Assembly (NCBI GenBank): GCA_005884465.1
Contig: VAZH01000045.1
Location: 1-12,853, forward strand
Length of the DNA: 12,853 nt
Reading direction: 5' to 3'
From: Alphaproteobacteria bacterium
Lineage (GTDB): Bacteria; Pseudomonadota; Alphaproteobacteria; Rhizobiales; Xanthobacteraceae
This document shows positions 1,635 through 11,714 of the stretch, piece after piece (position 1 is the first letter of the stretch; every line of letters begins with the position of its first letter). Under the pieces are notes generated by a model. It searched no databases. It was not told where the DNA came from and saw only the letters and a list, made by a program, of their open reading frames with translations. A program made the position numbers and the translations under genes.

Positions 1635-1792
1635 ATCTCTTGTTCTCGAACGAATCGACGCTGCTGCGCGTCGTGCGCGATATCGGGCTCGGGCTGGTCG
1701 ATCGCGCGCCGCCGCTGAAAAGCATATTCATCCGCCAGGCTGCGGGACTTGCAGGCGAGGTGCCGCGGCTGTTGAAGGGCGAGGCGTTATAG
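1593..1792 (+). pseudogene. Displaced C-terminal 66 residues of the UbiH-type hydroxylase
   Basis: This is the natural end of the preceding gene, read in the frame that contains the ATG at 1604. It reads FDTMAMGLATNSLNLLFS, then VVRDIGLGLVDRAPPLKS, IFIRQAAGLAGEVPRLLKG and a TAG at 1790-1792. This is the conserved C-terminal helical region of UbiH/COQ6 proteins, where the M-T/A-N-LF-S segment is typical. It has no start codon or ribosome site of its own that would suggest independent translation. It exists as a separate reading frame only because one C or G is missing in the CTGGCGCGGTTC stretch around 1587-1597. No slippery heptamer is present there, so programmed frameshifting is unlikely. 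Confidence 0.85.
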
Positions 1793-1832
1793 CCCTCAGC
1801 GTCGCCCCGCGCTGTAGCAATCATCAATGCAC

Positions 1833-1952
1833 GTCGTCCCCGCGAAAGCGGGGACCCATAGCCACCGGCCCCAGCCGTTTGCGAAAGCCGTCCGCCGCAG
1901 TGGCTTAGCCGAGAGGCCGCGGAGTATGGGTCCCTGCTTTCGCAGGGACGAC
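1833..1952. repeat. Palindromic intergenic repeat, 120 bp, each arm itself a hairpin
   Basis: The 28-bp left arm at 1833-1860 and the right arm at 1925-1952 are inverted repeats, identical at 26 of 28 positions. Each arm folds on itself: CCCCGC-GAAA-GCGGGG on the left and CCCTGC-TTTC-GCAGGG on the right. The two differences between the arms are the two partners of one base pair, so both hairpins stay intact. The motif (GTCGTCCC..GGGACCCATA) resembles a dispersed Bradyrhizobium repeat. It sits between the convergent ends of the UbiH-type gene and the Trm112-like gene, where it could also act as a bidirectional terminator-like structure. Confidence 0.85.
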
Positions 1953-1973
1953 AGCTCAAACCATATCGCGCCT

Positions 1974-2171
1974 TCACTCGATCTTCCTCGCCTCTTCCGG
2001 CAGCATGATCGGGATGCCGTCGCGGATCGGATAGGCGAGTTTTGCGGAGCGCGAGATCAGTTCCTGCCTTGCTGCGTCGAACTCCAGGGGACCCTTGGTC
2101 ACCGGACAGACCAGAATTTCCAAAAGCTTGGGGTCGACGGTGCCTTCAAGGCGTTCGGGCGGGGATGTCAT
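1974..2171 (-). CDS. Trm112-like/YcaR family small protein (UPF0434)
   Basis: A 65-residue protein that aligns along its length with E. coli YcaR, of the Trm112 family. In eukaryotes and archaea Trm112 activates methyltransferases; the bacterial role is not settled. Recognisable blocks are [38 protein letters not shown] and [10 protein letters not shown]. The zinc-ribbon CPxC of YcaR is reduced here to CPVT with no other Cys, so zinc binding by the usual ligands is not possible; my impression is that this is common in alphaproteobacterial members. I chose the ATG at 2171 over the upstream ATG at 2222 because AGGATC lies directly before it and GGAG 15 bases before, and because the added 17 residues do not belong to the family. 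The TetR gene ends 68 bp upstream on the same strand. Confidence 0.88.
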
Positions 2172-2239
2172 GATCCTGGTCTCCGGCTTCTTGTTCGACG
2201 CTGTAGCATATCCGATCGTCACGTGTATCCGCGCAGCCC

Positions 2240-2776
2240 TTATCGCGAGGCCATCCGCAGCAGTTCGTCGAGCACCGCCCGCCGTCTTGCCCGGGCCAAC
2301 GGTTTGTCCGACCGCGCAAAGCCGACAAATGCCCAGTAAAAAATCTGCGCTCGCGCACGGGCCACGCCGGGCGAAAGCCCGGATGCCCTGAGCATGCTTT
2401 CGACGTAGCCGAGCCGGCGTCGGTCGATGGCCTGCACGGCGCTTCGCGCCGCCGGGTCGACCGTGGCCCAGGTGCGGACCGCGTTCTCCAGCGCCAGCTT
2501 GCCGCCGAACGCCTGGCGCAGCAGAAGCGGCAGCCGGTCGTGGTTATCGGAGGCGGCCTCGAGATTGGCGATGATCTGCTCGGCGGCCACCTCGCGCCAA
2601 TGCTTGAGGATCGCGGCGTGGAAGGCGCCGATGTCGGCGAAATGCCAGTAAAAGCTGCCGCGCGATACCCCCATTGCTTTCGCCAGCGGCTCGGCTTTCA
2701 GGGCCGTGAAACCGCGCTCAGCCAGCGTCTTGAGGCCCTGATCGAGCCAGTCCTTGGCGGAAAGTTGATCGGTCAT
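2240..2776 (-). CDS. TetR/AcrR-family transcriptional repressor
   Basis: A 178-residue regulator, about the usual size of the family. The N-terminal domain (about residues 6-55) has the classic TetR helix-turn-helix, ending [22 protein letters not shown] (Gly36 onward), with SxGSFYWHF as the recognition-helix signature. The rest is an all-helical ligand/dimerisation domain (to MASR*) too divergent to name a ligand. The ATG at 2776 was chosen because GGGAAGGAAA directly precedes it; an in-frame upstream ATG at 2923 would add 49 residues that translate the operator region. It is divergent from a small membrane-protein gene, and the shared 95-bp region holds two near-identical palindromes. Autorepression plus control of the membrane protein is therefore the likely role (inference). 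Confidence 0.92.
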
Positions 2777-2798
2777 TTTCCTTCCCGGGGGCACCTTA

Positions 2799-2816
2799 CC
2801 ATACACCACTGTATTG
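2799..2816. promoter_or_regulatory. Operator 1 for the TetR-family repressor
   Basis: CCATACA-CCAC-TGTATTG: the inner 14 bp (ATACA-N4-TGTAT) are perfectly symmetric. It shares 13 of 14 arm bases with operator 2. It overlaps the candidate -35 (TTGACA, 2814-2819) of the plus-strand gene and a candidate -10 (ACTGTA on the plus strand, 2808-2813) of the repressor gene. Confidence 0.75.
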
Positions 2817-2837
2817 ACAACCGCGGGCGGCTGTCCT
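2808..2837 (-). promoter_or_regulatory. Candidate promoter for the tetR gene
   Basis: On the minus strand, AGGACA (plus 2832-2837) and TACAGT (plus 2808-2813) sit 18 bases apart, each a 4/6 match to the sigma70 hexamers. The -10 lies inside operator 1, as expected for an autoregulated TetR gene. It is weaker than the facing promoter. Confidence 0.4.
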
Positions 2838-2842
2838 AGAAC
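2814..2842 (+). promoter_or_regulatory. Sigma70-type promoter for the small membrane-protein gene
   Basis: A consensus -35 TTGACA (2814-2819), a 17-base spacer and a -10 TAGAAC (2837-2842). Transcription would start near 2849, inside operator 2. This leaves a leader of only about 23 bases before the ATG at 2872. The -35 overlaps operator 1 and the -10 abuts operator 2, so repressor binding would block it at both ends. Confidence 0.7.
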
Positions 2843-2860
2843 CCATACAGTCATGTATGG
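2843..2860. promoter_or_regulatory. Operator 2 for the TetR-family repressor
   Basis: CCATACA-GTCA-TGTATGG is a perfect 7-bp inverted repeat around a 4-base centre. Its centre is 44 bp from that of operator 1. It overlaps the expected transcription start of the small membrane-protein gene and ends 11 bases before its ATG. Confidence 0.8.
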
Positions 2861-2871
2861 AGCGCCCTCCG

Positions 2872-3222
2872 ATGCGCGACCTCTTGCTGCAATGTTCCGG
2901 GATTGCCGCGATTGCGGCGGCACTCGTTCACGGCGTGCTCGGCGAAACCAAAGTATTCGCCCGCGCCACCATCACACCGCCGCGACTGCGGACCCTGATC
3001 CGTCTGGTCTGGCAGGCCGGCACCGTGGCCTGGATCGGCGGCGGCGTGCTGCTGATCGCCGCGCCGTTGATGGGCTCGGAGCCGGCACGGCACTGGATTA
3101 TCGCAACGCTGGCATGCGTATTTGGCTTTGCCGCGCTGGCTAACGCCTGGGCGATGCGCGGCCGCCATTTCGGATGGGTGGCGCTCAGCGCGGTGGTCGC
3201 GCTCGCGGTTGCCGGATATTAG
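2872..3222 (+). CDS. Small inner-membrane protein, uncharacterised, under TetR-type control
   Basis: A 116-residue hydrophobic protein that I do not recognise. About four membrane segments are visible: LLLQCSGIAAIAAALVHGVL (4-23), TVAWIGGGVLLIAAPLMG (51-68), WIIATLACVFGFAALANAW (75-93) and GWVALSAVVALAVAGY at the C-terminus. Short charged loops lie between (ETKVFARATITPPRLRTLIR, MRGRHF). A His-Gly in the first segment (LVHGVLGE) stands out. The ATG at 2872 is preceded by GGAG with a 9-base gap. A further in-frame ATG at 2857 lies inside operator 2 with no ribosome site, so I reject it. Divergence from a TetR-family regulator suggests an inducible function such as stress tolerance, transport or membrane sensing, but the sequence shows none of these directly. 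Confidence 0.82.
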   Translation: MRDLLLQCSGIAAIAAALVHGVLGETKVFARATITPPRLRTLIRLVWQAGTVAWIGGGVLLIAAPLMGSEPARHWIIATLACVFGFAALANAWAMRGRHFGWVALSAVVALAVAGY

Positions 3223-3287
3223 CGTGGCGAAAAGAGCTCTCTTCAATCTCCGCCGCTGAAGGGACTCTCCTGATCGCTCCCGACACC

Positions 3288-3318
3288 TTAGAATGTCTCT
3301 AGTTTAGAAGGAGTCTTT
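3288..3318 (+). promoter_or_regulatory. Tandem Irr-box-like elements upstream of the iron operon
   Basis: Two TTAGAA-containing elements lie 16 bp apart. TTAGAA-TGT-CTCTAG (3288-3302) matches the rhizobial Irr/ICE pattern, as I recall it (TTAGAA-N3-TTCTAA), at 10 of 12 positions. TTAGAA-GGA-GTCTTT (3304-3318) matches at 9 of 12. The first also contains TAGAAT (3289-3294), a possible -10 hexamer without a good -35. They lie about 60-90 bases before the first gene of an operon that includes an FTR1 iron permease. Irr control is inferred from the motif and this context. Confidence 0.45.
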
Positions 3319-3379
3319 TTGCGCCTCCGGCAGCAAGCCGCTAGCTGACAGCATCAATCCCAAAAACGGAATGCGAGCG

Positions 3380-4279
3380 ATGCGAGCGCGGATACCGCCT
3401 GGACGATGTCATAGCATTGTGCTCTGCGCGATCGCCTGTCTTTTTTGTGATAGCGGCACCGCGCACGCGGAGGATGCCAGCTCCTGGCGCGATATCGAGA
3501 CCAAATACATTTTTGGATTTACCACCGGTTCCGGCATTGGCCTTGAAGGCGAGAAGGAATTCACCGTCGACAGCATTGGCCGGTTCGGCAAGCGCGATGG
3601 CCACTACGCGGCGACCGAGACCAAATACGAGTTCGAATTTACCCCGACCCAGTTCATCCAGATCGAATTCGGCGCGCTCGGAGCGACCCACCATATCGGC
3701 GGCGTGACCGATCTCGATGACCGGCGCCAGGTCGCATTGAGCGGAGCCTTCGCAGAATTCCGCTATCTTGCGATCGAGCGCACCTCGAACAACCCGTTGG
3801 CGGTCACGCTGGCGTTCGAGCCGACGGTGCGGCGGATCGACGAGACCGGCGGCGAACGCGTGCGCAATTATGAGTTCGAAACCATCATCAACGCCGATCT
3901 CGAGCTTCTGAAGAACCGCCTGTTTGCGGGGTTCAATTTGCTATACGAGCCCGAGGTCACACAGACTGCGGCGGGCGATACTGAGCGCGAGGCCAAGTTC
4001 GGCGGTTCGGCCGCGCTATCGCTTCGGATCGCGTCCAATGTCGTGCTCGGCGGCGAGGTCTGGTATCTCAGGCATTACGACGCCGCCAATTTAACGGCTT
4101 TCACCGGCGACGCCGTCATGCTGGGACCGACGCTCTATGTCCAGTTCACGCCAAAAATGTTCATGACCGCGGCGTGGAATACCCAGGTCTGGGGACGCGA
4201 GGTCGGCAATGCCGTCTCGCTGAACCTGGCCGAGTTCCAGCGCAATCGCGCCAGACTTAAATTCGCCGTCGAATTTTGA
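3380..4279 (+). CDS. Predicted outer-membrane beta-barrel protein, first gene of the iron operon
   Basis: A 299-residue exported protein without a family name that I can assign. It has a signal peptide (hydrophobic SIVLCAIACLFC, likely cleavage after GTAHA, before EDASS). The rest shows alternating polar/hydrophobic beta-strand stretches, such as TKYEFEFTPTQFIQIEFGALG, LAVTLAFEPTVRR, FAGFNLLYEPEV and VVLGGEVWYLRHYD. It ends in AVEF, the terminal Phe that BAM-assembled barrels normally carry. It has no TonB box or plug domain that I can see, and no Cys after the signal peptide. Two segments starting ETKY recur 40 residues apart. I chose the ATG at 3380, with GGA 9 bases upstream; an in-frame ATG at 3371 has no usable ribosome site. 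The cupredoxin gene follows after 39 bp and the FTR1 gene after that, so a role as channel or receptor for iron is inferred from context only. Confidence 0.8.
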   Translation: MRARIPPGRCHSIVLCAIACLFCDSGTAHAEDASSWRDIETKYIFGFTTGSGIGLEGEKEFTVDSIGRFGKRDGHYAATETKYEFEFTPTQFIQIEFGALGATHHIGGVTDLDDRRQVALSGAFAEFRYLAIERTSNNPLAVTLAFEPTVRRIDETGGERVRNYEFETIINADLELLKNRLFAGFNLLYEPEVTQTAAGDTEREAKFGGSAALSLRIASNVVLGGEVWYLRHYDAANLTAFTGDAVMLGPTLYVQFTPKMFMTAAWNTQVWGREVGNAVSLNLAEFQRNRARLKFAVEF

Positions 4280-4318
4280 TATTCCTTAAACCCGGATAAC
4301 GCTGGACAGAGGTGTGCT

Positions 4319-4663
4319 ATGGTTATCGTCATTAGAAAATTGATCTTGGCCGCGCTTTGCGCGATCGCGGTGCTTCCGCTCTCTCCGTCCCAAGCGCAAC
4401 AGGCGACCGAGCTTCAACTGACCTATTCCAAGGGCCAGTTCCAGCCGAGCGAACTGCGCGCGCCGGCCGACAAACCCATCACGGTTCGTCTGAAGAACCT
4501 CGACGCCAAGGCCATGGAGTTTGAAAGCAAATCGCTGCGGGTGGAAAAGGTGGTCGCCGCCAACAGCGAGGGAGTCATCAATGTGCGGGCATTGAAACCC
4601 GGCCGCTACGAATTTTACGACGACTTCAACGAAAAGGCGCGTGGCGCCTTGGTCGTGCAATAG
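4319..4663 (+). CDS. Periplasmic cupredoxin-fold protein (Cupredoxin_1, FtrB-like)
   Basis: A 114-residue exported protein: signal peptide (KLILAALCAIAVLPLSPSQA, cleavage probably after SQAQ or SQA), then a single beta-sandwich domain. The domain holds the landmarks LQLTYSKGQFQPSELRAPADKPITVRLKNL, AMEFESKSLRVEKVVA and LKPGRYEFYDDFNEKARGALVVQ, typical of Cupredoxin_1 proteins encoded beside FTR1 permeases (FtrB of the FtrABCD systems, or the Cup domain of EfeO). In those systems it acts with the permease in ferrous/ferric handling. The mature protein has no Cys and no His, so it cannot hold a type-1 copper site; acidic residues and Met are the only candidate ligands. Its ATG follows ACAGAGG with a 6-base gap. 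It lies between the barrel gene and the FTR1 gene, almost touching the latter. Confidence 0.85.
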   Translation: MVIVIRKLILAALCAIAVLPLSPSQAQQATELQLTYSKGQFQPSELRAPADKPITVRLKNLDAKAMEFESKSLRVEKVVAANSEGVINVRALKPGRYEFYDDFNEKARGALVVQ

Positions 4664-4673
4664 GCAGGCGCGG

Positions 4674-5504
4674 GTGTTGGCCGCACTGATCATCGTTTTT
4701 CGCGAGGTCTTCGAGGCCGGATTGATCGTCGGCATCGTGCTCGCGGTGACCGGCTCGGTTCCGCGTCGCAATCGCTGGATTGGCGGCGGCGTGCTCGTGG
4801 GTACGCTTGCGGCTTGCATCGTCGCCGCGTTTGCCGGCGTACTGTCCCAGCTATTTGCGGGCATGGGGCAGGAGCTGTTCAACGCGGCGATCCTGGCCAT
4901 CGCCGTCATCATGCTGACGTGGCACAACGTCTGGATGGCGCGGCACGGCAGGGAAATGGCCGGAGAAATGCGCGCGGTCGGACAGGCGGTCGCGGACGGA
5001 ACCAAACCGCTGCTGGCATTGGCTGTGGTGGTCGGTGTTGCGGTCTTGCGTGAAGGCAGCGAGGTCGCGCTGTTCCTGTATGGCGTCGCTGCGTCCGACG
5101 GTGGGTCGGCCTTGAGCCTCGCGATCGGCGGAATCATCGGGCTGGCGCTTGGAGCAGCCGTTTGCCTGCTAACCTATTTTGGCCTGATGCGCATCCCGCC
5201 GCGGGCATTGTTCGCGACCACGACGGTCCTGATCACATTGCTTGCGGCCGGCATGGCGGCGCAGGCGGTGGCATTCCTCGAACGCGCCAATTGGCTTACG
5301 CCCCTCGATACGGTGGCCTGGGACAGTGGCTGGCTGCTTTCGGAAAAGAGTATCGCCGGCCGGGCAATGCACACCTTGATCGGCTATACCGATCAGCCGA
5401 CGGAAATGCAGCTTTTGGTCTATCTGGGCGTGCTTGTCGTGACCGTCATGCTGATGCGGCTGACGGCACCTGAACAGCGCGCCGGTGTTACCGCAACCGG
5501 TTGA
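4674..5504 (+). CDS. FTR1-family iron permease (FtrC/EfeU type)
   Basis: A 276-residue inner-membrane protein that moves iron into the cytoplasm. Both hallmark REXXE iron-binding motifs are present inside membrane helices: REVFE (residues 10-14) and REGSE (126-130). About seven hydrophobic segments are visible, including ALIIVFREVFEAGLIVGIVL, ILAIAVIMLTWHNVWMA, LLALAVVVGVAVLREG, GGIIGLALGAAVCLLTYFG, TVLITLLAAGMAAQAVAF and LLVYLGVLVVTVMLM. The start is the GTG at 4674: AGGCAGG precedes it by 5 bases, and residue 2 onward fits the family N-terminus. The longer in-frame reading from 4641 overlaps the cupredoxin gene with non-family residues. It begins 10 bp after the cupredoxin stop, so the two are probably cotranscribed. 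No FtrA/P19, FtrD ferredoxin, EfeO or EfeB gene lies next to it. Confidence 0.93.
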   Translation: MLAALIIVFREVFEAGLIVGIVLAVTGSVPRRNRWIGGGVLVGTLAACIVAAFAGVLSQLFAGMGQELFNAAILAIAVIMLTWHNVWMARHGREMAGEMRAVGQAVADGTKPLLALAVVVGVAVLREGSEVALFLYGVAASDGGSALSLAIGGIIGLALGAAVCLLTYFGLMRIPPRALFATTTVLITLLAAGMAAQAVAFLERANWLTPLDTVAWDSGWLLSEKSIAGRAMHTLIGYTDQPTEMQLLVYLGVLVVTVMLMRLTAPEQRAGVTATG

Positions 5505-5527
5505 CGATCCGGCCGGGCAAGACCGCG

Positions 5528-7078
5528 CTAATTCCAATATGGCTTTAGTTTCTCGAACTCGCAAAAAGCACGCTCGGCCGCGGTGAGTAGGGGCTTGAAC
5601 CGGGCTTCCTCGTGCCCTGTCAGCAAGCCTGCAGCGAATATGCGTCGGGACGGCCTGGCCGATCGTGCAGCCGAGGCCTTGGCGATCCGGCTCGTGAGCT
5701 TCTCATGCACGATGACGTCGTTCAAATCGCCAAAGCAATCCTGCATGTCCTTGAGCGCCGACAAGAAGGACTCTCGATGTTTTTCTTTCTTTTTTCCGGG
5801 AAACACCGTCTCATAGAACTCCGCAGCGTAGCGTAGTTTTTTCACCTGGATTCGAAGCTTGTGCCGCGCCTGAGCATCGAGTTTTGCCAGCATGCGGCCC
5901 CGTTTCCGAATCTTCTTCCGGCGTCGCGTCAGTTGCGCGCGAGCCAGCGTCTTGATCGGCTGCTCGCAACGCTGGCGCGCGAGTTCGTTTCGCGGCTCCC
6001 GCCAGCCGCCGACGTCGAGCCATGCGGCGAGGTTCAGCGTCAGGTCGCGAAATCGCCTCGAACAGACCGCCGTCAATGCGCGCGCCACGGCGGCGTCACG
6101 CCGGTCCGCCAGATCGTGCGACAGGCTTCGCATCCCGGTTAATCGTGCATGGCTCTTTTCAAGCGGCGCCACGACCCTGGTCAGGAAAACGTCGAATTCG
6201 CGCGCGGGACCAAGTTCGCTTGTGAGCCATTTCAGTTCCCGCTTGATGTCGCGCACTTCCGCTTCCGCAACAATATCCGAGAATAACGATATCGCGGCGC
6301 GCAGGCGTCGCAACCCGACGCGCATTTGATGGATGCCCGCAGGGTCTCCGGCAAGGATTGCCGGTTTGTTGGCGACTATCTGCTTGAGACAGGCAAATCC
6401 AATCGATTGGAACGCGGCGCTCGCCGGCATGTCCGGCGCAATGTCAACGGCGTCGCCTTTTGCGACCGCGGCGTCCTCGCCGGCGAGAAGCTCGTAGCCG
6501 CGTTGAGACTTGCTTTTGACGGCAAGTTCGCCAGACATAGCGTGTGCAATCGTGCGCGCGAACTCGAACAGGCGTGCTCTGTTGCCTCGCTTCAGCTCGA
6601 GTTCGGCCTCGCACAGCGGCAGCGTGCCATTGCCGGCATCGATTTCGCCGCGATCGATCGTCAATGCGATATCGCAGTCCTTGCGGGTAAGCGGATAGCT
6701 GGTGCGCTGCACGCGGGTTTCGAACACAGGGCGCAATCGCTTGCGCAGCTTCTTGATGCCCAATGGTTCGAGTGCCGATGTATCCGCCCGTTTCAGGTCC
6801 GGCCGGCTGTCGTCGACCGCCGCTTCCCATTCGCCGCGTTCGAACGGGCTTCCGTTATCTGACTTGATGGTCTGGATGTACCGACTGCCGGTGCGCCGGA
6901 CGCGCAACGTCAGGCCGTTGTCTTTAAGTTTCAGTCGTTTAGTGTCGAAGTAGACCGAGAGCTGATTTTCGCTTCGCTTCGACCTGGTTGCCCCGCGGAG
7001 CAAGGGCACGCGCCGGAGCCGCGCGAAATTCGCGGATGGCAGCTGCAGCTTGATTTCGATTTCCTTCGGAGACGACAC
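5528..7078 (-). CDS. CYTH-CHAD domain protein (inorganic triphosphatase/polyphosphate-binding)
   Basis: A 516-residue cytosolic two-domain protein. Residues about 5-205 form a CYTH domain that opens with the ExExK signature (EIEIKL, residues 6-11) and continues with charged strands (YFDTKRLKLKDNGLTLRVRR, CEAELELKRG) lining a triphosphate tunnel. The family hydrolyses triphosphates such as PPPi or thiamine triphosphate with a metal ion. Residues about 230-505 form a CHAD domain with the two conserved histidine helices, HQMRVGLRRLRA (His250) and HKLRIQVKKLRYAAEFY (His406), and the DMQDCFGDLNDV element. CHAD domains bind polyphosphate granules. I chose the GTG at 7078 because GGAG lies 6 bases before it and ExExK is normally close to the N-terminus. 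A longer reading from a TTG at 7165 would translate a repeat. It is convergent with the FTR1 gene, 23 bp away. Confidence 0.92.
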   Translation of the reverse strand: MSSPKEIEIKLQLPSANFARLRRVPLLRGATRSKRSENQLSVYFDTKRLKLKDNGLTLRVRRTGSRYIQTIKSDNGSPFERGEWEAAVDDSRPDLKRADTSALEPLGIKKLRKRLRPVFETRVQRTSYPLTRKDCDIALTIDRGEIDAGNGTLPLCEAELELKRGNRARLFEFARTIAHAMSGELAVKSKSQRGYELLAGEDAAVAKGDAVDIAPDMPASAAFQSIGFACLKQIVANKPAILAGDPAGIHQMRVGLRRLRAAISLFSDIVAEAEVRDIKRELKWLTSELGPAREFDVFLTRVVAPLEKSHARLTGMRSLSHDLADRRDAAVARALTAVCSRRFRDLTLNLAAWLDVGGWREPRNELARQRCEQPIKTLARAQLTRRRKKIRKRGRMLAKLDAQARHKLRIQVKKLRYAAEFYETVFPGKKKEKHRESFLSALKDMQDCFGDLNDVIVHEKLTSRIAKASAARSARPSRRIFAAGLLTGHEEARFKPLLTAAERAFCEFEKLKPYWN

Positions 7079-7228: not shown

Positions 7229-7903
7229 CTACTGCAGCGGCGGGTCGCCGCTGGTGCGCTTCTTCGCAAGATCCATCTCGGTGACCGCGATCAGGATTTC
7301 GGCGCGCGTTTTCAGGTCGGGCGCCTCAAGCATTGCCTGTTTTTCCGGCGGCCCGTAGGGCGACATCATCGCCAGCGCGTTGACCAGTGCCTCGTTGGGG
7401 GCGCTTTCGACGCCTTCCCAGTCCACCTTGAGATTATTGGCTTTGAGAAAATCCGTCAGCACCGCGAGCAGCGCCTCGCGGTCGACGGCTTCCTCGCCTT
7501 TGCGCGCCGTGAAATCGTCGAGGTAGGGAAAATAGTCCACCTTGCATTGTCGGTATGCGGTCTGCACGGCAATTTCCTCGATCACCTTGAAGCGCGTGAT
7601 GCCCGTGAGTTCGAGGATGTAGCGGCCGTCGCCGGCCTCGGCGAGCTGGGTGATGCGCCCGACGCAGCCGACGCGAAACAGCTTCGGTTTGTCCTCGTCC
7701 GCCGAGTGGAAAACGTCCGGCTGGATCATGCCGATCAGCCGATGGCCGTCGCGCAGCGCATCGTCCACCATCGCAAGATAACGCGGCTCGAAGATGTTGA
7801 GCGGCATCTGGCCGCGCGGCAGCAGCAGCGCGCCGGGCAGCGGAAACACCGGTATCACCTCGGGAAGGTCGCCGGGCCCGCGATATTCGGCATTGATCGG
7901 CAT
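7229..7903 (-). CDS. Free-standing LON substrate-binding-domain protein
   Basis: A 224-residue protein consisting of one Lon N-terminal (LAN/PUA-like) domain and no AAA+ or peptidase part. The domain starts at VIPVFPLPGALLLPRGQMPLNIFEPRY, with the conserved FPL and NIFEPRYL, and continues through HRLIGMIQP, GCVGRITQLAEAGDGRYILELTGITRFKV. It ends in helices with TDFLKANNL and LVNALAMMSPYGPPEKQAMLEA. Such proteins are often annotated as peptidase S16 but lack a catalytic Ser-Lys dyad, so proteolysis is not expected; a substrate- or protein-binding role is inferred. The ATG at 7903 has GGGGCCGC just before it. It follows the thioredoxin-TPR gene on the same strand after 110 bp. Confidence 0.92.
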   Translation of the reverse strand: MPINAEYRGPGDLPEVIPVFPLPGALLLPRGQMPLNIFEPRYLAMVDDALRDGHRLIGMIQPDVFHSADEDKPKLFRVGCVGRITQLAEAGDGRYILELTGITRFKVIEEIAVQTAYRQCKVDYFPYLDDFTARKGEEAVDREALLAVLTDFLKANNLKVDWEGVESAPNEALVNALAMMSPYGPPEKQAMLEAPDLKTRAEILIAVTEMDLAKKRTSGDPPLQ

Positions 7904-7940
7904 CTGCGGCCCCGGCGCTAGTCTTTAAAGCATTGGTTTG

Positions 7941-8014
7941 GCGCGTATTCCAATCGCAAAACCGGTAACCAGCCCCGGATCAAGTCCAAGGGCATGCTTT
8001 TGCGGAATATGCGC
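7941..8014. repeat. Imperfect inverted repeat between the thioredoxin and LON genes
   Basis: GCGCGTATTCC..GCAAAA (7941-7960) pairs with TTTTGCGGAATATGCGC (7998-8014), with one G/A difference and a 4-base bulge. The 37-base interior includes CCGGATCAAGTCC, also seen in dispersed Bradyrhizobium-type repeats. Its right arm ends on the first base of the stop codon of the thioredoxin gene. It could be a mobile repeat copy, a transcript-stabilising hairpin or an attenuator between the two genes; the sequence does not decide. Confidence 0.55.
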
Positions 8015-8937
8015 TACGAGAACAAGATCGTCGATAGCCGCTTGCGTCCATCCATGGTGGCCTGATCGGCCGGCCCCCAGGCGTCGAAGAACTGCACGAG
8101 TTGCTTTCGCGCGGCATCGTCGTTCCATTTGCGGTCGCGCTTGACGATCTCGAGCAGTTGATCGGTGGCTTCAGCGCGCTTGCCTGAGGCGTTAAGCGCG
8201 GTCGCGAGATCGAATCGCGCCTGATGATCGAGCGGATTTGCCGCGACTTTCTGTTCCAGCTCGCTCACCGGGCCAAGCGCCTTGGCCTGTTCGGCGAGAT
8301 CGATCGCCGCCTGCACGGCCTTGACCGTCGGGTCATTGCGCTTCGATTCCGGCACCATGGCCAGCGTCTGCTTGGCTTGCTCGATGGCCCCGGTTGCAAC
8401 GTAGCATTTGGCAAGCCCCGCCAGCGCTGCGATATTGGTCGGGTCCGCCGCCAGCACCTCGGCATAAATTTGCGCTGATGTGGCGGGATCGCCTTCCGCC
8501 AGAACCGCTTCGGCCTCCTTGAGAATTTCCGCGACATTAGGCTCGCCAGCGGCCGGCATGCCTGCCGACACCTTGTTGATGAAAGCGTTGACCTGGCTCT
8601 CCGGCACCGCGCCCATGAAACCGTCGGCGGGCTGGCCGTTGACGAAGGCGATCACGGCCGGGATCGACTGGATACCCATCTGGCCCGGGATAGCCGGATG
8701 CTCGTCGATGTTCATCTTCACCAGCTTGACCTTGCCCTTTGCGGCGCGGACCGCCTTCTCCAGAATCGGCGTGAGCTGGCGGCACGGGCCGCACCATGGC
8801 GCCCAAAAGTCGATCAGCACCGGCTGCCGCTTTGACTCCTCGATGACGTCCTTCACGAACGTCTGGGTGGTCGTCTCCTTGATCAGATCGGGCGCCGCCT
8901 GCGGCGCCGCTCCACTGCCCTGCTCTACTATCGTCAC
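8014..8937 (-). CDS. Thioredoxin-TPR co-chaperone (CnoX/YbbN family)
   Basis: A 307-residue cytosolic protein with an N-terminal thioredoxin domain (about 20-130) and C-terminal TPR-like helices (about 140-300). The active site is the complete WCGPC (48-52) with the cis-Pro of SIPAVIAF (Pro93), so unlike E. coli YbbN it should be redox-active. The TPR part is visible as repeats of the type AEAVLAEGDPATSAQIYAEVLAADPTNIAALAGLAKCYV and ANPLDHQARFDLATALNASGKRAEATDQLLEIV. The family protects chaperone clients from overoxidation and passes them to GroEL/DnaK. The start is a GTG at 8937 with GAGGA 5 bases upstream. It is the first gene of a probable two-gene minus-strand unit with the LON-domain protein, and an ATTTTA (8973-8978; TAAAAT on the minus strand) upstream may be its -10. 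Confidence 0.93.
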   Translation of the reverse strand: MTIVEQGSGAAPQAAPDLIKETTTQTFVKDVIEESKRQPVLIDFWAPWCGPCRQLTPILEKAVRAAKGKVKLVKMNIDEHPAIPGQMGIQSIPAVIAFVNGQPADGFMGAVPESQVNAFINKVSAGMPAAGEPNVAEILKEAEAVLAEGDPATSAQIYAEVLAADPTNIAALAGLAKCYVATGAIEQAKQTLAMVPESKRNDPTVKAVQAAIDLAEQAKALGPVSELEQKVAANPLDHQARFDLATALNASGKRAEATDQLLEIVKRDRKWNDDAARKQLVQFFDAWGPADQATMDGRKRLSTILFS

Positions 8938-9191
8938 GGGAATCCTCGCCTTGTGTGTGAAGGATCGGGTCTATTTTAGCATGTCCCAGCCCTAATTGGC
9001 GCTTGACGGCCCAATTTGCAATCGGCGGAACCCCGCCCGGCTGCTTTTGGGCTGATTTGCGGGCCGATCGCCGATCATGGCCGCTCGGCCAGGCCTGTTC
9101 CCCGGGGGCAGCGTGACCTGTTGCATTCACGGGCCGCATTTGGCATAGCTCTGCCCGTTGCCGGCGAGGGATCGCCGTCAATCTCTCGGAT

Positions 9192-9266
<75 letters not shown>

Positions 9267-9302
9267 GATTTTCTCAGGTGGCAAAGCAGTAACTTGATGA
9301 CG

Positions 9303-9330
9303 AGCCGCCGCTTGGCGGCTTTGTTGCTTT
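9303..9330 (+). terminator. Rho-independent terminator after tRNA-Gly
   Basis: A 7-bp perfect stem AGCCGCC (9303-9309)/GGCGGCT (9314-9320) with a GCTT loop, followed by a T-rich tract (TTGTTGCTTT). It lies 36 bp beyond the tRNA. It would separate the tRNA transcript from the DUF2235 gene downstream. Confidence 0.75.
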
Positions 9331-9467
9331 ATGCCCGTTCAACTAAAATCGTGGCATCCGCGATTCCTGATCGCCGACGATGAAAGCCTTTTCTGTTAGG
9401 TATGGAAATGCAATGCTCCAATACCAGAGGTTGCAAAGTCGTTTGGTGATGCGCCGAGGGCAATCCC

Positions 9468-11714
9468 ATGAGCCGAAACATTGTTCTGCTGTCCGACGGC
9501 ACTGGCAATTCCGCGGCGAAGGTGTGGCGCACCAATGTCTGGCGCACCTTCGAGGCGCTGGACCTTTCCGGTTCGGACCAGGTCGCGTTCTATGACGACG
9601 GCGTCGGCACTTCGTCGTTCAAGCCGTTGGCGATTCTCGGCGGGGCGTTCGGCTTCGGCCTGAAGCGCAACGTGATCGACATCTACAAATTCGCATGCCG
9701 TAATTATCGCGACGACACCGACCACATCTACGGATTCGGATTCAGCCGTGGCGCCTTCACGATCCGCGTCGTCATCGGCCTGATTCTCAATCAGGGCCTG
9801 GTGTCGGCCCAGAATGAAGCGGAACTCGACAGAAAGGCCCGCGCGGCCTACCGTCAGTATCGGCGGGAGCGGTACCATACTGTCTGGCACATCGAGGATG
9901 TTTTCCGCGCGATCCGCGACCTGTTTCTGCCGAAAGATTACGACAAGGCCGACAATCGCCCGGTGGGAAAGATTCGCTTCATCGGGGTCTGGGACACCGT
10001 TGCTGCGTACGGAGCGCCATTGGATGAGATGACGCGCGGCATCAGCAAATGGATCTGGCCGCTGGAGCTTCCGAACCACACGCTCAACCGCGAGCGGGTG
10101 ATGCGCGCCTGCCAAGCCCTCGCACTCGATGAAGAGCGTACGACGTTTCATCCCGAACTATGGAACGAGCGGGTCGTGCCTCCCGGGGAATTCGATCCGG
10201 ATAAAGAACGCTTCATCAAGGACGAGCAAATCAGCCAGGTCTGGTTCGCCGGCGCGCATTCCAACGTCGGCGGCGGCTATCCCGACGATACGCTGGCCTA
10301 CATTCCGTTCGTCTGGATGATCACCGAGGCGCAGCGCTGCGGTTTGAAGTTCAAATCGGATGCCGCGACGCCGCCGGCTGACCCCGATACGTTCAAGAAC
10401 GCGATCTCGAAACGCGACAAGGATGGCCGCATCTACGATCCGCGCAAGGGGCTTGGTGGCTACTACCGCTATGGGCCGCGCAAACTGGTGCAGCTTTGCA
10501 ACGCGCAATACTCCAAGAAGGAAGACGACGAAGTCCTGATCGAGCGGCCGAAGATCCACGAAAGCGTCTTCCGGCGGATCGACAATCATGCCCACGCCTA
10601 TGCACCGGTCGGCTTGCCGCCGACCTACGACGTCGTCAAGGAAAACGGTACGATCGTCACGCCGGATCAGTATGGCTTCGAGACCGACAACGACGCGAAG
10701 GCCCGCGCGGACGCGCAGGAGCATATCTGGAACGAGATCTGGAAACGCCGAATCGTATATTTCGCAACGGTCGGCGCCACGGTGTGGTTGTTCGCGTATC
10801 CGCTGCTCCGCTCGGCTCCCCGCTCCGACGAGTATGTCAGCCCAATCCGATGGGTATCCGATCTCATCCGCATTGTCGGTAATTTCCTGCCCGGCTTTGC
10901 CGAAACCTGGATCAACGGCTTCGCGCGTAGCCCCGGCCAGTTCGTGGTCCTGCTGCTTCTCGTGGCCGGCTTGACCTGGCTCGGAGCTGGAATTGCATCG
11001 CAAATATCGGACCGTATGGGGGCGATCTGGCGGCGCGTTAGCTCTGCGCCATCGGGTCTTCCGGACGATGCCGTCTACGGGCTTCGTAGCAATAAATACT
11101 ATATAGCGCTTCACGAGGGGTTGAAGCGGAAATGGGCGCCGGCTTTCTTTGCACTGCTGTTCGTTTACCTCGGGGCCACCTTCGCCAGCCACCTGCTTTA
11201 CAATGTTCAGGACGTTGCGGGCTGGACCTGCGTTGAAGACGGCACGGCAAGCGGCCTCGCCAAGGGCGAAAAGCGCGAGGTGGATTTCGCCACGTCGAAC
11301 CTCTGCAACAGGACCGGGATTGCCGTCGAGGGCAATGGCGCGAAATATCACATAGCGATCAAGGCGACATCGCAGTGGCGCGACGATGGCATCCCGTCAC
11401 AACTCGGCGGGTTCTATTCCACCGACGCACCGGCCTGGTATCAGCGCGTGTTGTTTATGCTTGGCGTTCCGCTCCGCCGTGAACTGACGCGGCCATGGTT
11501 CCGGCTGGTCCTGCGCTACGGCGCGACCGGCGGCGAGGAAGTGTTCCTTGATCCGGATCCAGAGGACGGCACGATCGAAGAGGTCATCCGGCCGACCCGT
11601 AAGGGCGAACTGTTTGTTTTCGTCAACGACGCCGTGGTCGGCATTCCCGGGCTTTACGATGTTTTCTACCGCAACAATGAAGGCGGCGGAAAACTAACGG
11701 TGACCCGGAGATAA
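9468..11714 (+). CDS. DUF2235 (Tle1-like) alpha/beta-hydrolase protein with membrane segments
   Basis: A 748-residue protein. The N-terminal 300 residues are a DUF2235 hydrolase domain: start MSRNIVLLSDGTGNS, nucleophile elbow GFSRG (Ser93), a conserved WDTVAAYG (Asp176) and FAGAHSNVGGGYPDD (His264), together a plausible Ser-Asp-His triad. DUF2235 includes the type VI secretion phospholipase effectors Tle1, but also many uncharacterised proteins. The second half has three hydrophobic segments, around 428-447 (RIVYFATVGATVWLFAYPLL), 492-510 (FVVLLLLVAGLTWLGAGIA) and 556-578 (APAFFALLFVYLGATFASHLL). A beta-rich tail ends NNEGGGKLTVTRR. No signal peptide and no VgrG, PAAR, Tli immunity or other secretion gene lies beside it, so an effector role is not supported here; a membrane-bound lipase or esterase is the more cautious reading. 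The ATG at 9468 follows GAGGG with a 7-base gap. Confidence 0.88.
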   Translation: MSRNIVLLSDGTGNSAAKVWRTNVWRTFEALDLSGSDQVAFYDDGVGTSSFKPLAILGGAFGFGLKRNVIDIYKFACRNYRDDTDHIYGFGFSRGAFTIRVVIGLILNQGLVSAQNEAELDRKARAAYRQYRRERYHTVWHIEDVFRAIRDLFLPKDYDKADNRPVGKIRFIGVWDTVAAYGAPLDEMTRGISKWIWPLELPNHTLNRERVMRACQALALDEERTTFHPELWNERVVPPGEFDPDKERFIKDEQISQVWFAGAHSNVGGGYPDDTLAYIPFVWMITEAQRCGLKFKSDAATPPADPDTFKNAISKRDKDGRIYDPRKGLGGYYRYGPRKLVQLCNAQYSKKEDDEVLIERPKIHESVFRRIDNHAHAYAPVGLPPTYDVVKENGTIVTPDQYGFETDNDAKARADAQEHIWNEIWKRRIVYFATVGATVWLFAYPLLRSAPRSDEYVSPIRWVSDLIRIVGNFLPGFAETWINGFARSPGQFVVLLLLVAGLTWLGAGIASQISDRMGAIWRRVSSAPSGLPDDAVYGLRSNKYYIALHEGLKRKWAPAFFALLFVYLGATFASHLLYNVQDVAGWTCVEDGTASGLAKGEKREVDFATSNLCNRTGIAVEGNGAKYHIAIKATSQWRDDGIPSQLGGFYSTDAPAWYQRVLFMLGVPLRRELTRPWFRLVLRYGATGGEEVFLDPDPEDGTIEEVIRPTRKGELFVFVNDAVVGIPGLYDVFYRNNEGGGKLTVTRR

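Follow-up and report, generated by a model that had tools for sequence, protein, structure and literature searches.

A predicted outer-membrane β-barrel and an FtrB-type cupredoxin form a conserved gene pair, with an FTR1 permease as optional third member, in a probable iron operon of Xanthobacteraceae

The stretch analysed here, positions 1 to 12,853 of contig VAZH01000045.1 from an alphaproteobacterium of the family Xanthobacteraceae (assembly GCA_005884465.1; hereafter 'the window'), encodes in this order and all on the forward strand a predicted outer-membrane β-barrel (3371..4279), an FtrB-type cupredoxin (4319..4663) and an FTR1/FtrC-type inner-membrane iron permease (4674..5504), with gaps of 39 and 10 nt between them. 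Our comparison with related genomes identifies barrel and cupredoxin as the conserved unit in such Bradyrhizobium-like soil bacteria and FTR1 as an optional third member, and the operon probably handles iron. We put at roughly 0.5 the probability that the three proteins form an iron-handling module, in which the barrel would admit iron, the cupredoxin would bind it and FTR1 would transport it through the inner membrane. A preliminary description of the window had proposed an envelope-spanning iron operon of these three genes. Open reading frames (ORFs) and Pfam families agree with the genes and their spacing, and the neighbourhood as well as several iron-type signals (FTR1, FtrB-like ligands, Irr-like boxes, and the joining to FtrABCD in one relative) speak for the proposal, but the notion of one fixed trio was rejected by a survey of 296 genomes.

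Conservation of the barrel–cupredoxin pair

In this survey of the family, relatives of the barrel were found in 127 genomes, cupredoxins in 81 and FTR1 in 156. Gene positions were compared by script, and counts refer to the 150 best-listed barrel relatives and the 150 best-listed FTR1 matches, more of both being present (82 of the 150 FTR1 rows were compared in this manner; the remaining rows were checked, and none lies beside a listed cupredoxin). A cupredoxin gene stands directly downstream, in the same order and on the same strand, in 21 of the 150 barrel relatives. The linked barrels exhibit 39–100% identity and every listed relative above 42% is linked, while the 129 relatives without a listed cupredoxin beside them are all at or below 42%. 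In a tree of 55 barrels, built by a quick method with some long branches and a midpoint root, the 27 cupredoxin-linked sequences and four rows from contig edges constitute one clade (Shimodaira–Hasegawa-like approximate likelihood-ratio test, SH-aLRT, 99), all 24 unlinked sequences fall outside, and the link to the cupredoxin needs a single change. On a tree of 65 cupredoxins, which has few columns and leaves 30 of 62 forks open, 15 changes are required to account for the labels 'barrel-only', 'both', 'FTR1-only' and 'neither'. One change compared with 15 thus suggests that barrel and cupredoxin were kept together and that FTR1 came and went. Chance neighbourhood was considered and rejected, given that 21 places agree in gene order and strand and that the linked barrels form one clade.

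A separate collection scan, which overlaps with the survey (several loci are identical sequences), yielded 16 loci, two of which (L012 and L014) stop within the barrel gene. The other 14 show the next gene, and it encodes a cupredoxin in 14 of 14; ten continue into FTR1 and four (L003, L010, L015 and L016) do not. At L003 (Afipia sp. 1NLS2; 7404–11548), the place of FTR1 is taken by genes for a MerR regulator, an HMA-domain protein and a heavy-metal P-type ATPase, a set resembling those of metal resistance. At L018 (Bradyrhizobium sp. AS23.2; 1696–4460), the match to the barrel is confined to its last third and lies behind a transposase-like ORF, and FTR1 is split into two pieces in different frames; judged from its sequence, this operon copy looks broken.

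The 107 listed cupredoxin places comprise 75 with FTR1 directly downstream, 21 with the barrel upstream, nine with both and 20 with neither. Twelve of the 21 barrel–cupredoxin pairs do not directly precede FTR1; in one of these, three genes separate the pair from FTR1, and another is cut off by a contig edge. The preliminary description had tied the barrel to the cupredoxin–FTR1 pair. What recurs is the link of barrel and cupredoxin, in 21 places, and not that of barrel and FTR1: most barrel homologs reside away from FTR1, be it among the 129 of 150 listed relatives or the 12 of 21 linked ones. The pairs are split in G239, G251, G291, G171, G115 and G049, six genomes from genera g34 and g3, with barrel and cupredoxin at one place and another cupredoxin with FTR1 elsewhere.

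Two Nitrobacter-like genomes of genus g20, G083 (100% complete, four contigs) and G177 (89% complete, its locus identical to that of Nitrobacter sp. 62-13), possess barrel and cupredoxin and gave no match for FTR1; both contain FeoB_C matches. FTR1 is present in a third genome of the genus, G164. The reverse arrangement is found within the window's own genus, where G289 and G212 have cupredoxin and FTR1 between the same neighbours as the window (FAD, i.e. flavin adenine dinucleotide, monooxygenase, Trm112, TetR and a 121-residue protein on one side, Lon-domain protein and thioredoxin on the other; 56–88% identity) and lack the barrel. Loss of the barrel would be the simpler reading for these two genomes, because their cupredoxins group among the three-gene Bradyrhizobium ones (support 87–91, not starred).

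In G068, a run of six genes encodes the barrel, a cupredoxin, P19 (PF10634, E-value 9e-68), a second cupredoxin, a Fer4_5 protein and FTR1, which looks like a barrel–cupredoxin pair joined to a complete FtrABCD set. A P19–cupredoxin–FTR1–FtrD set without barrel also exists in the family (L207). Beyond the family, the trio was found in G842, from another family of the order, and on a plasmid of Methylocella tundrae, where the genes are annotated as transporter, cupredoxin and FTR1; G299, from another order, has a distant barrel and a cupredoxin with no FTR1 nearby. Searches with a barrel profile retrieved relatives in 6 of 385 genomes at the level of the class and in 16 of 299 at that of the phylum, own and already known genomes included; at most six and eight candidates per genome, respectively, were scored, so that absence carries little weight there.

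The predicted barrel

Read from its first ATG the barrel has 302 residues; the ATG at 3380 gives the 299 residues of the preliminary description. Structure prediction bears out the barrel proposed there, yielding a 12-strand pore (predicted local distance difference test, pLDDT, 88.7) with an N-terminal signal helix (residues 13–26) and a C-terminal Phe. The predicted lumen appears rich in acidic residues, with 17 conserved acidic positions compared with seven conserved basic ones. The cupredoxin-linked clade conserves H235, E59, E193, D247, E288 and E301, which are rarer or absent outside it.

Family searches with the protein gave the following: (i) its sole Pfam match, to PF13557, remains below threshold (16.7 bits, cut-off 22), (ii) a scan against PHROGs gave no match, and (iii) precomputed Pfam domains are absent from the best 120 of 2098 homologs, whose source-given names all read 'hypothetical protein'. 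The VIA-align structure list contains no solved iron channel and is thus uninformative either way. DUF6662 (PF20367) is matched by L111 and L113, two distant relatives retrieved by profile; the window barrel itself gave no match to this family. The gene for the DUF6662 barrel at L113 (4133–6423; G710, a distant genome of the phylum) is followed by genes for a flavin mononucleotide (FMN)-binding protein and ApbE, and adjoins heavy-metal-efflux-like genes.

Metal-site residues of the cupredoxin and the permease

The cupredoxin (114 residues; PF13473, E-value 4.7e-29) has Brucella FtrB as its closest solved relative (PDB 8VUK, E-value 8.2e-14), in agreement with the preliminary description. According to PMC11966278, FtrB binds Mn(II), a mimic of Fe(II), through E84, E86, E93 and D119, and copper involves D118 and H121; the H121A variant still binds copper and has lost ferrous oxidase activity. 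E67, E69, E76, D101 and D102 of the window protein align with E84, E86, E93, D118 and D119, and Asn104 occupies the position of His121. Hence, with the ligand set kept and His replaced by Asn, the window cupredoxin is predicted to be an iron binder and a poor ferroxidase.

An alignment was made of 26 cupredoxins, 25 of which were chosen for their link to a barrel and one of which is distant. E84 and E93 occur in all 26 sequences, E86, D118 and D119 in 25, and H121 in 11. Grouped by context, cupredoxins having both barrel and FTR1 as partners show Asn at the position of His121 in 12 of 18 cases and His in four, while barrel-only ones keep His in seven of 11, six of these with the full ligand set; the full FtrB set is present in 18 of 34 FTR1-only cupredoxins.

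FTR1 (276 residues from a TTG start; PF03239, E-value 2.2e-34) contains both REXXE motifs, as had been noted before, in the form of REVFE and REGSE, and all 15 aligned sequences have R10, E11, E14, R126, E127, G128 and E130 in common. The NCBIfam EfeU model scores 142.5 bits, below its cut-off of 255. The gap of 10 nt holds for the TTG start; an alternative GTG at 4641 would overlap with the cupredoxin gene. The same genome encodes a second, distant FTR1 (contig C303; L002, 250–1071) with 26% identity to that of the window, beside a COX15-CtaA gene, and similarly low-scoring FTR1s recur across many genomes of the family.

Irr-like sites upstream of the operon

Sites for the regulator Irr were taken from promoters of mbfA-type genes (Rubrerythrin plus VIT1). 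We take blr7895 of Bradyrhizobium to be an mbfA homolog. Both mbfA of Rhodobacter and blr7895 are described as genes with Irr boxes (PMC3413700). The promoters of nine genomes, including the window's own, contain near-perfect TTTAGAA-N3-TTCTAAA sites and provided the matrix; of the 14 mbfA-type loci considered, it leaves out L156, with a weaker site, and L157–L160, with no visible one. Two overlapping imperfect sites resembling Irr boxes (iron control elements, ICE) precede the barrel gene on the forward strand (3287..3303 and 3303..3319). Of 40 regions in front of barrel or cupredoxin operons, 20 score above the 95th percentile of the controls (347 upstream regions), namely eight of 18 three-gene operons (two of these loci end before FTR1), four of eight two-gene ones, the one six-gene run and seven of 13 barrel-free ones; the controls may include intergenic DNA common to divergent neighbours, which would make the comparison conservative. 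Irr may thus control the operon. An mbfA-type gene (L112, 8271–9242) lies ∼0.8 kb from the trio operon of G842, on the other strand.

Genomic context

The operon is preceded by a 121-residue ORF without Pfam family and then a divergent TetR regulator, and is followed by a convergent gene for a CYTH-CHAD protein. As in the preliminary description, no P19/FtrA, EfeO, EfeB or ferredoxin gene adjoins the three genes, as judged from flanking ORFs and Pfam. The partner list given there for known systems thus applies insofar as those partners are absent here, but it had passed over the cupredoxin that FtrABCD does include (FtrB). No P19 was found in the window's own genome, where the window cupredoxin is also the only PF13473 protein found (the assembly is 70.9% complete). 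A scan of 3100–5700 for sigma-70 promoters returned none; a scan for terminators returned two terminator-like sites, both within FTR1 and none between the genes, a number that does not exceed the mean of 2.8 obtained with shuffled sequences. Elsewhere in the window (9468–11714), a 748-residue protein contains a Tle1-like phospholipase catalytic domain of type VI secretion systems (PF09994, E-value 5.5e-67).

Discussion

Such a module would most likely operate as follows. Iron, probably as Fe(II), would enter the periplasm through the predicted 12-strand barrel and independently of TonB; there it would be bound by the FtrB-type cupredoxin, and the FTR1 permease of the window would carry it over the inner membrane. 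The last step may be interchangeable, being served by FTR1 here, by a full FtrABCD system in one relative and possibly by FeoB in the Nitrobacter-like genomes lacking FTR1. Iron passage through the barrel, contact of barrel and cupredoxin, and direction of flow are inferences; barrel topology and acid-rich lumen are predictions. A more specific version, to which we attach distinctly less confidence, is that the barrels represent a new family of outer-membrane channels for Fe(II), independent of TonB and served by a dedicated docking cupredoxin: the acidic lumen would pass Fe(II), the cupredoxin would take it at the periplasmic mouth via its E-x-E/E/D site without oxidation, and would then hand it to FTR1, FtrABCD or FeoB, depending on which of these inner-membrane transporters a genome has.

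Several observations weigh against an iron-handling module of this kind. FTR1 directly follows in only nine of the 21 barrel–cupredoxin places, and 66 of the 75 cupredoxin–FTR1 pairs show no barrel (at least three of them, in G231, G164 and on contig C170 of G291, begin at a contig edge, where it could not show); FTR1 therefore does not generally need the barrel. The charge of the lumen was derived from residue alternation, for which strand 118–135 gives no signal, and two basic residues, K45 and R293, likewise mark the linked clade. Twelve-strand barrels of like shape have other cargo, as is the case for the amyloid of FapF, the COG4313 channel and autotransporters. Among FTR1-only cupredoxins the Asp pair is less constant, both residues being kept in 20 of 34. 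As for regulation, the best site of the window (3303–3319; 12.3 bits) is borderline, with an empirical p of 0.055 relative to the 347 controls, two barrel-free relatives at the same locus reach p 0.12–0.13, one region scores nothing, and the 40 upstream regions are related, so that a Mann-Whitney p overstates the case.

The same regulatory sites may be read in another way. Since the operon boxes resemble those of mbfA-type genes, and since Irr, one of whose targets is blr7895, is described to act as a repressor when iron is depleted (PMC3413700), the operon could, like mbfA, be turned on by abundant iron, with barrel and cupredoxin scavenging or releasing excess periplasmic Fe(II) for detoxification or control of storage. 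The mbfA-type gene near the operon of G842 fits this view, as does the persistence of barrel and cupredoxin without FTR1 in G083 and G177. We nonetheless regard this explanation as rather unlikely: (i) FTR1/FtrC proteins are described as importers (PMC11966278), (ii) in one relative the pair is joined to FtrABCD, which takes up ferrous iron, (iii) the window cupredoxin lacks the His on which, as shown by mutation, the ferroxidase activity of FtrB depends, and (iv) Rudolph et al. 2006, going by its title alone, reports positive as well as negative control by the element.

Alternatively, the barrel might be a general or non-metal channel of the COG4313/PF13557 type which merely shares the promoter of the cupredoxin. 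Its fold and the varied cargo of similar barrels would allow for this, but the linked barrels form one clade with conserved charged and His residues of their own, and the pair stays together while other neighbours change, which makes us doubt this explanation to much the same degree. Least probable of all is that the metal is copper or manganese and that FTR1 was attached in some lineages only: the cupredoxin fold, the 12 of 21 pairs not directly followed by FTR1, the observation of the FtrB ligand site with Mn (PMC11966278), a Beijerinckiaceae plasmid (L116, 5944–7134) with a cupredoxin (annotated as a fragment) and FTR1 and no annotated barrel among genes annotated for copper efflux, and MnoP, an outer-membrane Mn transporter on record for Bradyrhizobium (PMC6011978), point that way, but the window cupredoxin and 14 of 18 of those having both partners contain another residue in place of the copper-binding His, with the Fe/Mn set retained, the pair is linked to FTR1 and to P19/FtrABCD, and Irr-like boxes lie upstream.

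If an iron-handling module does exist, the conserved pairing would give FTR1-type uptake an outer-membrane step, and the barrel is then a named candidate for the passage of Fe(II) at this step, which the FtrABCD model in the accessible part of PMC11966278 leaves unaddressed ('outer membrane' appears there a single time, in the legend of a figure about other transporters). We found no description of the barrel–cupredoxin pair in the literature searched, which consisted mostly of papers outside subscription and largely of titles and beginnings of abstracts; FtrP of a five-component Rubrivivax system is named there without description. A clean comparison is offered by natural genomes in which the operon has the same flanking genes and either includes or lacks the barrel.

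Comparison with known iron and metal systems

Among known systems, FtrABCD of Brucella, Bordetella and Burkholderia likewise combines an FtrB-type cupredoxin with a following FtrC/FTR1 permease containing two REXXE motifs. However, the window locus contains neither P19/FtrA (PF10634) nor an FtrD polyferredoxin, the cupredoxin is preceded by the barrel instead, and Asn takes the place of His121 of FtrB; the locus hence resembles FtrB plus FtrC without FtrA and FtrD. EfeUOB and FetMP have a permease of the FTR1 superfamily in common with the window, and EfeO offers a further likeness in its N-terminal cupredoxin domain (PMC11966278), but no EfeO, EfeB or P19 gene is adjacent and the EfeU model stays below its cut-off. 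With the outer-membrane channels of COG4313/PF13557 the barrel shares its predicted 12-strand fold, differing in that the profile match is below the curated cut-off and the structural alignment comprises 7% identity. Finally, MnoP of Bradyrhizobium japonicum, likened to the barrel by function only and carrying Mn, provides from the same genus a precedent for an outer-membrane protein for divalent metals (PMC6011978).

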